Shown one piece after another: positions 5,992 through 30,036 of a stretch of 64,000 bases of DNA; position 1 is the first letter of the stretch, and each line of letters begins with the position of its first letter. The stretch covers positions 4,000,001 to 4,064,000 of the forward strand of contig NZ_CP065546.1 of the NCBI RefSeq assembly GCF_015999545.1, written 5' to 3'. This stretch comes from Lysinibacillus sp. JNUCC-52 (GTDB taxonomy: Bacteria > Bacillota > Bacilli > Bacillales_A > Planococcaceae). The notes beneath the pieces were generated by a model. That model was not told the DNA's origin. It saw only the letters and a program-made list of their open reading frames with translations, and made no database searches. Position numbers and translations under genes: made by a program.

Positions 5992-6081
5992 GTGAAGTTT
6001 ACTATTATTATTTCCTTGATAATTATTGAAAGCACAGTCAAAATGGAGATATTACATATATTTCTAAAAGGGGTAAATGCG

Positions 6082-6882
6082 ATGATGGATGTTGTTGTAC
6101 GCAATAATGTGAAAATTATTGGAAAAGGGCAGAAACCGATTCTTTTTGCACATGGATTTGGCTGCGATCAAAATATGTGGCGCTATATTACGCCTGCTTT
6201 CGAGGAGCAATACCAAATTATTTTGTTTGATTATGTTGGTTCTGGTAATTCAGATTTAAACGCTTATCAATCTGATAAATATCAGTCTCTACAAGGGTAC
6301 AAGCAAGATGTTTTAGACATAATTGAAGCGCTTGGGCTGCAACAGGTCATTTTTATTGGTCACTCTATTAGTTCAATGATTGGTTTACTTGCATCAATCG
6401 AACGCCCTGATTACTTTGAAAAACTAATTATGATTGGACCTTCGCCGCGGTATTTAAATGATGACAATGGCTATGTTGGTGGATTTGAGCTGAGTGATAT
6501 TACGGAAATATTAGATATGATGGAAATGAATTTTTCAGGTTGGGCTAGCTTTCTAGCACCGATTGCCATGAATAATCCTGACTCTCCTAAACTAACAAAA
6601 GAGCTTGAACAAACTTTTAATTCTGCTAACCCACTGATTGCAAGGGAGTTTGCGGAAGTAACGTTTTTATCAGATCATCGAGGCGACTTAACAAAGGCTA
6701 GTGTGAGTGTGCCTATTTTAATTATGCAATGTTCGGACGATAGTATCGTTCCAATTGAGGTTGGCGAATATTTGCACAATCATTTAAAAGCCAGTACGTT
6801 TCGATTAATGACTGCAAAAGGTCATTATCCTCATATTAGCCATCCTGAGGAAACGATTCAGTTAATTACACAATTTCTGTAA
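6082..6882 (+). CDS. rsbQ: RsbQ-like alpha/beta hydrolase (stress-signalling receptor)
   Basis: A 266-residue alpha/beta hydrolase that matches B. subtilis RsbQ along its length as I recall it: HGFGCDQNMW, the FDYVGSGNSDL segment, the nucleophile motif GHSIS, GPSPRYLND and SHPEETIQLI. The expected triad is present: Ser95, Asp219 and His248. RsbQ binds or cleaves a small hydrophobic ligand and is required by its partner RsbP in the energy-stress branch of the sigma-B pathway. The start is ATG 6082 after AAAAGGGG; an in-frame ATG at 5992 lacks a ribosome site. The next gene follows after 28 bases and carries an RsbP-like PAS region, so the pair is operonic and functionally linked. Confidence 0.88.
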   Translation: MMDVVVRNNVKIIGKGQKPILFAHGFGCDQNMWRYITPAFEEQYQIILFDYVGSGNSDLNAYQSDKYQSLQGYKQDVLDIIEALGLQQVIFIGHSISSMIGLLASIERPDYFEKLIMIGPSPRYLNDDNGYVGGFELSDITEILDMMEMNFSGWASFLAPIAMNNPDSPKLTKELEQTFNSANPLIAREFAEVTFLSDHRGDLTKASVSVPILIMQCSDDSIVPIEVGEYLHNHLKASTFRLMTAKGHYPHISHPEETIQLITQFL

Positions 6883-6910
6883 TGGAATAAGAAAGGATTA
6901 TGAATAATTC

Positions 6911-7900
6911 ATGGATAAACGATTGAACTATGCACCTTGTGGATTTATTGCCATTACGCATGATGGAATGATGATAGAGGTGAATCAGACCTTTCTTGAG
7001 TGGATAGGTTATGAACGGGTGGATTTATTACACCAGCATATTGAATTGCTAATGTCCAAGCCTAATAAGATGATTTTTCATTCTTATTTTTACCCAACAA
7101 TAAATCTGAACGATCATGTGGAAGAACTGTTTATCAGTTTAAAGCATCGCGATGGTACTGCGATTCCTTTTCTATTGAATGGTAGGAAGTATATGGTGGG
7201 AGAGGCTGAATGTATTGATTGTATTTTAGTGCCTATGAAAAAGCGCATTGATTATGAATTAGAGTTACGCTCAGCTAAAAAGCAATTAGAGGCTGCTTAT
7301 TTAGAAAAGGATCAGGCTTTAGCTAAATTAGAGCAACTGCATTTGGAAATTGAGCGAAAACAAAATGAGCTTTTAAGCATAAACGCCACATTAGTAGAAC
7401 TATCCGTTACTGATAAGCTAACAGGATTGAAGAACAGAAGGTTTTTTCAAGAGAAGCTTGAGGAGCAACTTGCTATATTCGATGAAACAGCACAACTATT
7501 CTCTCTTTTAATTTTGGATATCGATCATTTTAAAAAGGTAAATGATACATACGGACATCAAGTAGGTGATGAAGTTCTTGCCCAATTGGCACGAATTTTA
7601 AATGCGCATGCCCGACAAGATGATGTCGTCGCTCGTTATGGTGGAGAGGAATTTGTTATTATTTTACCTGAAACAGATGTAGATACGTCGAGGACGATTG
7701 CTGAGCAAATACGTCGGGTTGTTGAACAGGCGGAATGGCAAACTGGTAAAGTCACGATAAGTATCGGTATTGCGACCGTAACAGAAAAGGATACAGATGC
7801 AACGATTTTGAAAAAGGCAGATCAAGCATTATATGTATCGAAAGAGAACGGAAGAAATAGGGTAAGCACTTTTGAGTGCCTGACACCCAAACAATTCTGA
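6911..7900 (+). CDS. PAS-coiled-coil-GGDEF diguanylate cyclase with RsbP-like sensor region
   Basis: A soluble 329-residue diguanylate cyclase. The PAS domain covers about 1-110, a coiled coil about 115-165 and GGDEF about 165-325. The active-site signature is GGEEF (244-248), and an RxxD inhibitory site (R235-D238) sits exactly five residues before it, so both synthesis and product inhibition are expected. The N-terminus (MDKRLNYAPCGFIAI, later EELFISLKHRDG and IPFLLN) closely resembles B. subtilis RsbP as I recall it, but RsbP ends in a PP2C phosphatase and this protein does not. It lies 28 bases behind the rsbQ-like gene. I infer that RsbQ feeds a ligand-derived signal to the PAS domain, which drives c-di-GMP output. 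Confidence 0.9.
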   Translation: MDKRLNYAPCGFIAITHDGMMIEVNQTFLEWIGYERVDLLHQHIELLMSKPNKMIFHSYFYPTINLNDHVEELFISLKHRDGTAIPFLLNGRKYMVGEAECIDCILVPMKKRIDYELELRSAKKQLEAAYLEKDQALAKLEQLHLEIERKQNELLSINATLVELSVTDKLTGLKNRRFFQEKLEEQLAIFDETAQLFSLLILDIDHFKKVNDTYGHQVGDEVLAQLARILNAHARQDDVVARYGGEEFVIILPETDVDTSRTIAEQIRRVVEQAEWQTGKVTISIGIATVTEKDTDATILKKADQALYVSKENGRNRVSTFECLTPKQF

Positions 7901-25536: not shown

Positions 25537-25654
25537 TGGTTATATCTCGCGAGAAGTATAATGTGAAAATTATTGTAAAATAAAATATTGACATAACTAA
25601 CAAGAGACATTATAGTGGTGAATAATCATTAATTTTTCAATCATATTGTTTTGA

Positions 25655-25924
25655 AACGCAAAGATTAGGAGTAGTAAAAGCTCATTATTCGGTAAAGAGA
25701 GCTGCGGGGTGGTGCAACGCAGTCCAATAAGACTTTGAACTTGCCTAGGAGTGGTAAAATAAATAGAGTTATCAGATTATTCTATTTGTTTGACGATTAA
25801 CCTTCGTTATAAGGTTTTTAAGTTGGGTTCATAATGAACCAATTAGAGTGGTACCGCGGTAGCTTATGGCATATCGTCTCTTCTTTCATTTGATGATGAA
25901 GGAACAGACGATATGCCTTTTTTG
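25655..25924 (+). promoter_or_regulatory. T-box riboswitch upstream of the permease (leucine)
   Basis: The T-box sequence AGAGTGGTACCGCGG ends at 25859. By analogy with the pheS leader in this window (GAA-TTC-AGCC), the specifier loop GAA-CTT-GCC gives a CUU (Leu) codon at 25740-25742. A terminator follows at 25868-25924. Regulation by uncharged tRNA-Leu fits the YvbW-like permease downstream. The specifier assignment is by eye; TTG, also Leu, overlaps it. Confidence 0.88.
25868..25924 (+). terminator. T-box attenuator terminator of the permease gene
   Basis: Arms GGCATATCGTCT (25868) and AGACGATATGCC (25906-25917) pair perfectly with partial inner pairing, followed by a T-run. Confidence 0.85.
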
Positions 25925-29726: not shown

Positions 29727-29860
29727 ACATGTGCTAAGGTTGTGATAGAACAAAGCAGTGAAAAACTGATATGTTCTATTACACTTTAGATGAAGAATAT
29801 GTGGGCAGAGCATATATTTTCATAAAGGTAAAAATGAATAATTTCACTATTTTAAGTGAT

Positions 29861-30036
29861 GATAGAGGTGCAAGATTCAATAGTAGCACATTGAAGGATG
29901 GACAAATCCAATGATGGTGTGTGAAAGGGGAGCTTGCCGAAGTGAAGTATCGTTGTTTCCGATACTTTGCTGGTTTTGCATTTAATAGATGTAAGACTGT
30001 CGAATCTTGACGTTTCGGAGAGCTATCACACATGCG
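29861..30036 (+). promoter_or_regulatory. Lysine riboswitch (L box) of lysC
   Basis: The aptamer shows the conserved blocks AGAGGTGC near 29864, AGTA near 29881, and GAAAGGGGAGCTTGCCGAAG at about 29923-29942, and closes at ATCACACATGCG. Lysine binding should favour the terminator at 30062 and shut off lysC. This is the only member of the aspartate pathway seen under this control here. Confidence 0.92.

Follow-up and report, generated by a model that had tools for sequence, protein, structure and literature searches.

An RsbQ-type hydrolase next to an RsbP-class PAS diguanylate cyclase in Lysinibacillus sp. JNUCC-52, and the outputs attached to RsbQ in related genomes

The RsbQ-RsbP pair of Bacillus subtilis is the energy-stress pathway to sigma-B. 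The hydrolase RsbQ binds RsbP through its PAS domain, where residues F55 and Y59 of the F-alpha helix matter; the catalytic triad is required, and signal transfer has been proposed to run through the coiled coil (PMC3183031; this and the other papers cited are represented here by the available parts of their texts). The same report (Nadezhdin, Brody and Price, 2011) described RsbQ-PAS modules on three outputs, namely PPM phosphatase, histidine kinase, and diguanylate cyclase. The finding was restated in PMC12143880, where a common coiled-coil switch is proposed for phosphatases, kinases, and cyclases, and the RsbQ-PAS cyclase case is cited. Since such modules were reported in PMC3183031, the concept is not new, and the gene pair of Lysinibacillus sp. 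JNUCC-52 is a well-supported new example of one known since 2011. An open literature search found no study of an RsbQ-PAS cyclase module in Lysinibacillus. What is added here is scale, as within the order the cyclase form turns out to be the rule. A preliminary description, made from the sequence alone, had seen in this locus an RsbQ with an RsbP-type PAS domain that drives a cyclase; the pairing and the class of the PAS domain stand, whereas the novelty is forestalled by PMC3183031 and the rewiring from sigma-B is not supported.

The features of the locus are listed in Table 1, with coordinates in the window, that is, the analyzed 64,000-nucleotide stretch of the single 4.68-Mb contig of this genome. 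Closest among named proteins are those of Lysinibacillus.

Table 1. Features of the rsbQ-cyclase locus in the window, and RsbR-type examples from Planococcus
Feature	Position	Strand	Basis
RsbQ-type alpha/beta hydrolase, 266 aa	6082..6882	+	1wom E 7.5e-100, residues 2-266; PF00561 3.1e-20
Catalytic Ser95 codon (GHS)	6364..6366	+	Aligned with RsbQ nucleophile
Catalytic Asp220 codon	6739..6741	+	Column is Asp in 147/149 cyclase-linked relatives
Catalytic His248 codon	6823..6825	+	Column is His in 147/149 cyclase-linked relatives
Intergenic gap, 28 bases	6883..6910	+	Between ORFs; no terminator-like site found on + strand
PAS-coil-GGDEF diguanylate cyclase, 329 aa	6911..7900	+	ORF; Pfam domains
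RsbP-type PAS, residues 1-109	6911..7237	+	PF13426/PF00989; class tree; five strands in model
Helical linker, residues 115-165, heptad pattern	7253..7405	+	Model helix 115-193; a/d positions 60% L/I/V/M, best frame
GGDEF domain, residues 166-317	7406..7861	+	PF00990 6e-50
RxxD (R235-D238)	7613-7624	+	Read in sequence
GGEEF motif	7640-7654	+	Read in sequence
Planococcus RsbR-type examples	L303-L308; L146:729-1583; L150:1085-1945

The best solved relative of the hydrolase is B. subtilis RsbQ (PDB 1wom), matched over the full length, followed by Olei00960 (2.6e-72) and then by the plant KAI2/D14 receptors. Together with the triad S95, D220, and H248, read off the 1wom alignment, this match bears out the RsbQ-like hydrolase with an intact triad that had been recognized earlier. 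Residues are counted from the ATG at 6082, and the open frame extends upstream to a GTG at 5992. The serine is present in all 149 cyclase-linked relatives. Cyclase-linked and phosphatase-linked RsbQ proteins have 54 near-invariant columns in common, the triad among them, and differ at columns 23, 139, 148, and 157 (numbering of the 1wom segment). Column 23, beside the GFG motif, is His in 89% of the cyclase-linked and Pro in 73% of the phosphatase-linked proteins, and column 157 is mostly Leu in the former and mostly Phe in the latter; ligand or catalysis may vary accordingly by output class. Because RsbQ proteins of the two output classes differ at these four columns, the identical ligand assumed in the preliminary description is only plausible.

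In the downstream protein, Pfam finds PF13426 (2.3e-7) and PF00989 (2.1e-6) in the most N-terminal domain, and a GGDEF domain that is full length, covering positions 2-161 of the 161 in the PF00990 profile. The output is thus GGDEF, as had been proposed, rather than the PP2C domain of the RsbQ-RsbP sigma-B pathway, and the protein should synthesize c-di-GMP. The C-terminus carries both motifs noted at first reading, GGEEF and RxxD. The GG(D/E)EF motif is present in 119 of the 121 cyclase partners of RsbQ, and RxxD in 49 of them, too few for an RxxD I-site to be a module feature. In the AlphaFold2 model (mean pLDDT 81.3), residues 11-108 include five PAS strands, residues 115-193 form a helix, and a GGDEF fold is present; the arrangement of the domains is not trustworthy because pTM is 0.48. 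Among PDB entries, the model best matches PAS-GGDEF-EAL, a cyclase linked to a LOV domain, and isolated GGDEF domains. The heptad pattern in the sequence coincides with the model helix, consistent with a coiled-coil linker.

One branch of the PAS tree separates 99 RsbQ-linked PAS domains from 19 other JNUCC-52 PAS domains (SH-aLRT 99.8, in a quick search on 116 columns that gave long outgroup branches). The tree includes 99 of the 100 PAS-bearing representatives, one being too short, and its outgroup omits L269 (the PAS domain of the locus itself) and L275. Grouping with the PAS domains of RsbP had been set in advance as a test, which came out positive, and the JNUCC-52 domain can be assigned to the RsbP type by class. 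Nine residues define this class (PMC3183031). Compared with B. inaquosorum RsbP (L192), C10, Y59, E72, and P86 are identical, four positions are substituted (JNUCC-52 has I13, M48, K53, and F56), and the F55 position is occupied by Ile. The F55A change in B. subtilis is null, with RsbQ binding inhibited (PMC3183031). This column is variable in the 149 cyclase-linked PAS domains (Y 52, F 39, I 35, L 11, M 6, V 5, other 1), and hence part of the cyclase lineage has probably remodelled the F55 contact.

The two genes indeed lie on the same strand, 28 bases apart, as first described. A search for RsbQ in 250 genomes of the order (E ≤ 1e-40) gave 150 rows from 129 genomes, and a search of the same set with cyclase residues 1-130 (E ≤ 1e-12) gave 133 PAS rows from 120 genomes; the latter threshold misses some distant cyclase-linked PAS domains, five such loci being found by reading frames. 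A PAS match follows on the same strand in 132 of the 150 RsbQ rows, at a spacing of 14-246 bases (median 28), and RsbQ precedes 132 of the 133 PAS rows, the lone exception being an RsbP-like protein in genome G089. The pairing is beyond chance, and co-occurrence is near-strict. Within the genus of JNUCC-52, 15 of 31 genomes have both genes and 16 have neither. One genome of the genus (G123, L165) has stops in both rsbQ and the cyclase gene, which fits joint decay. For 688 of the 807 comparisons made across 11 genomes with at least two intact modules, the similarities of RsbQ and of PAS had the same sign; two of the three module pairs of G175 disagree (19/53 and 23/63). Neither these comparisons nor the genus counts are independent events, and no p-value is attached to them. 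An argument for a shared transcript from promoters was discarded, with 5 promoter-like sites observed against 8.5 expected.

Partners of RsbQ were classified by the downstream frame at 149 places, the two rows of G123 being merged, using HMMs built in this analysis (that for histidine kinases from five sequences); a Pfam check covered five proteins, four of them partners, and the kinase-like calls L188 and L189 are by the built HMM only. Comparison of PAS-PP2C with PAS-GGDEF neighbors, suggested in the preliminary description, gave 14 versus 121 places; 9 others have a STAS protein of the RsbR type without a PAS domain, 3 a PAS domain without readable output, and 2 no partner. Counted per genome (n = 129), 102 have GGDEF only, 10 PP2C only, 3 GGDEF and PP2C, 5 GGDEF and RsbR, 4 RsbR only, and 5 other combinations. 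The cyclase is the usual partner in the order, and therefore conclusions on sigma-B drawn from B. subtilis cover the rarer form there. A class-wide search found such an RsbQ in 48 of 398 genomes. Of its 52 rows, 28 fall outside the order set, and 23 of these were classified, as 20 GGDEF, 2 kinase-like, and 1 PAS only, the unclassified ones being G274:C30, G373:C9, G549, G467, and G510. Among 62 named loci retrieved with B. subtilis RsbQ, a query that favors Bacillus so that counts are not frequencies, there are 37 PP2C (33 Bacillota, 4 Actinomycetota), 8 GGDEF, 6 kinase, 2 PAS only, and 9 loci without a classifiable downstream frame. The exceptional G089 has an RsbP-like PAS-PP2C protein (L166:2001-3212) without an adjoining RsbQ match and two cyclase-linked RsbQ genes elsewhere; a single RsbQ may serve several partners.

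The sigB operon, which the preliminary description proposed to look for, was found in JNUCC-52: SigB scores 393.7 bits (cut-off 315), and its gene directly follows rsbV-like and rsbW-like genes (G000 3.22 Mb, L007). No rsbRSTU genes adjoin them within the stretch seen, and no RsbU was seen in the genome. The three PF07228 matches of the genome are a receiver-PP2C protein, a frame that at 802 aa has the size of SpoIIE, and a PP2C_2 protein. The first adjoins CheR and receiver frames (2.89 Mb, L015), far from sigB, and by architecture only it resembles the RsbKY system with the methyltransferase RsbM (PMC9847131). The module is present in G103, which has no SigB match at E ≤ 1e-80. The idea that module presence tracks sigB was dropped, as 243 of the 250 genomes have SigB at this threshold.

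With 21 GGDEF matches, the JNUCC-52 genome encodes many proteins of the cyclase type besides this one; its two PilZ matches are possible c-di-GMP receptors. One other protein of this kind, MASE3-GGDEF-EAL, is encoded at 190-2337, 3.7 kb upstream of rsbQ. No c-di-GMP riboswitch was found in the 64-kb window at Rfam gathering thresholds; the only Rfam matches were Lysine (29855-30033), T-box (a leader at 25652-25884), and tRNA. With a cyclase as output, c-di-GMP would give a direct readout in the search for the RsbQ ligand.

We consider it probable that the pair is a Lysinibacillus-type bipartite RsbQ-PAS sensing module whose output is a diguanylate cyclase, with RsbQ expected to signal via the coil to c-di-GMP. 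Most likely, the hydrolase would bind, and perhaps hydrolyze, a small molecule and would contact a dimeric PAS-coil-GGDEF partner at its PAS domain; the resulting change would travel along the coiled coil to set the activity of the GGDEF dimer and hence c-di-GMP. By analogy with B. subtilis RsbQ-RsbP (PMC3183031), we infer that the contact involves the PAS F-alpha helix and requires the triad; the coiled-coil switch and the change in c-di-GMP are likewise proposed from analogy. This reading is favored by the RsbQ homology and triad, the PAS-GGDEF architecture, adjacency in both directions, the PAS branch with its four identical class residues, the retained GG(D/E)EF motif, the agreement of RsbQ and PAS similarities, the double stops in G123, the lack of an RsbP match in the genome, and the two PilZ matches; Ile at F55, the four RsbQ columns that follow output class, G175, and the 9 unclassifiable loci among the 62 count against it. 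How RsbQ would act is a more evenly balanced matter. It might be mainly an enzyme that hands its product to the pocket of the PAS domain, with the actual sensing done by PAS (Model 1 of PMC3183031); to this we give somewhat less than an even chance. Whatever the output, almost all relatives keep the triad, and the available text of that report leaves both of its models standing, but kinship with plant receptors makes Model 2, in which a receptor like KAI2/D14 signals its occupancy through contact, equally natural.

The evolutionary reading of the preliminary description, that an ancestor in the JNUCC-52 lineage exchanged an RsbP-type PP2C phosphatase for a cyclase, appears unlikely to us. PP2C and GGDEF forms do share one PAS class, and the RsbQ tree (quick search; 102 representatives standing for the 213 rows that have one of four outputs, more than 240 aa, and no stop) shows only 6 changes of output, versus a mean of 31.5 under shuffled labels. 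The tree is unrooted, however, and GGDEF-linked RsbQ proteins occupy both sides of its deepest drawn split, so that it gives no direction for the output exchange and rewiring from sigma-B finds no support. The JNUCC-52 protein falls within an all-GGDEF set of 33 rows (SH-aLRT 95); GGDEF-linked proteins are not one group, as 7 such rows are sister to a 23-row PP2C block of Bacillota and further ones are placed among distant phyla. Three genomes (G019, G151, and G170) have one PP2C and one GGDEF module each, and the PP2C-linked RsbQ proteins of G019 and G151 lie inside the PP2C block, apart from the cyclase-linked RsbQ of their own family. That the PP2C-linked RsbQ proteins of Bacillota form one block, and that GGDEF is the commoner output both in the order and among the new class loci, also speaks against an origin from RsbP. 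Equally directed at sigma-B, though far less probable, is the possibility that the JNUCC-52 RsbQ still serves sigma-B in trans, the cyclase being incidental. The presence of sigB with its rsbV-like and rsbW-like genes and the arrangement in G089 would allow it; however, no second RsbP-type PAS domain scores in the genome (the next match has E 0.008), the three PF07228 matches all lack the PAS-PP2C architecture of RsbP, and no RsbR relative is detected at E ≤ 0.001. As neither RsbP, RsbU, nor an RsbR relative was detected, sequence searches give this RsbQ no RsbQ-type PAS client other than the cyclase.

A different arrangement was observed in Planococcus (g5), where an RsbR-type STAS gene occurs in the flank after rsbQ in 21 of the 26 RsbQ-bearing genomes, at 9 loci directly after rsbQ and at 12 after rsbQ-cyclase; outside this genus, no RsbR-type gene follows rsbQ in the 149-locus set. 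Six loci show the gene orders rsbQ-cyclase-rsbR, rsbQ-cyclase-rsbQ2-rsbR, and rsbQ-rsbR. The encoded protein matches solved RsbR (E 1.3e-25, residues 134-279). In 11 Planococcus genomes searched, the rsbQ-linked RsbR is the one match at E ≤ 1e-100 among the matches listed, which also include further RsbR-like and RsbS-sized proteins elsewhere in these genomes. RsbR is not among the three outputs in the available text of PMC3183031, and a literature search, covering parts of the texts, found no mention of it as an RsbQ partner. Since the RsbR-type gene follows rsbQ or rsbQ-cyclase, and rsbQ-rsbR is the only RsbQ arrangement found in G008, G030, G031, and G033, RsbQ may act directly on a stressosome sensor. 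We tentatively suggest that the RsbR-type protein could be a fourth RsbQ partner, by which the signal would reach both c-di-GMP and sigma-B. The JNUCC-52 locus has the cyclase arm only, with no RsbR arm.

Compared with known systems, the locus shares with B. subtilis RsbQ-RsbP the RsbQ homolog, the RsbP-class PAS domain, and the coiled coil, and differs in having GGDEF in place of PP2C in a genome where no RsbP was found. The plant KAI2/D14 receptors are homologous hydrolases with a triad, but have plant signalling partners, and no common ligand is known. To our knowledge, SiaC of Pseudomonas aeruginosa is not an alpha/beta hydrolase. The SiaC-SiaD system (PDB 7e6g; PMC8457831) is similar in that a separate protein activates a coiled-coil GGDEF enzyme, whereas the JNUCC-52 cyclase scores 183.6 bits on the NCBIfam SiaD model NF038266, below the cut-off of 290. 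In the stressosome-controlled cyclase of Moorella (cited in PMC12143880), a sigma-B-type input module is likewise set on a GGDEF output. The closest counterpart is the cyclase module of PMC3183031: although the available main text of that report does not include Lysinibacillus or discuss the RxxD I-site, and F55 is Ile in JNUCC-52, both have rsbQ followed by PAS-coil-GGDEF in unchanged gene order, with an N-terminal RsbP-class PAS domain and a coiled-coil linker.
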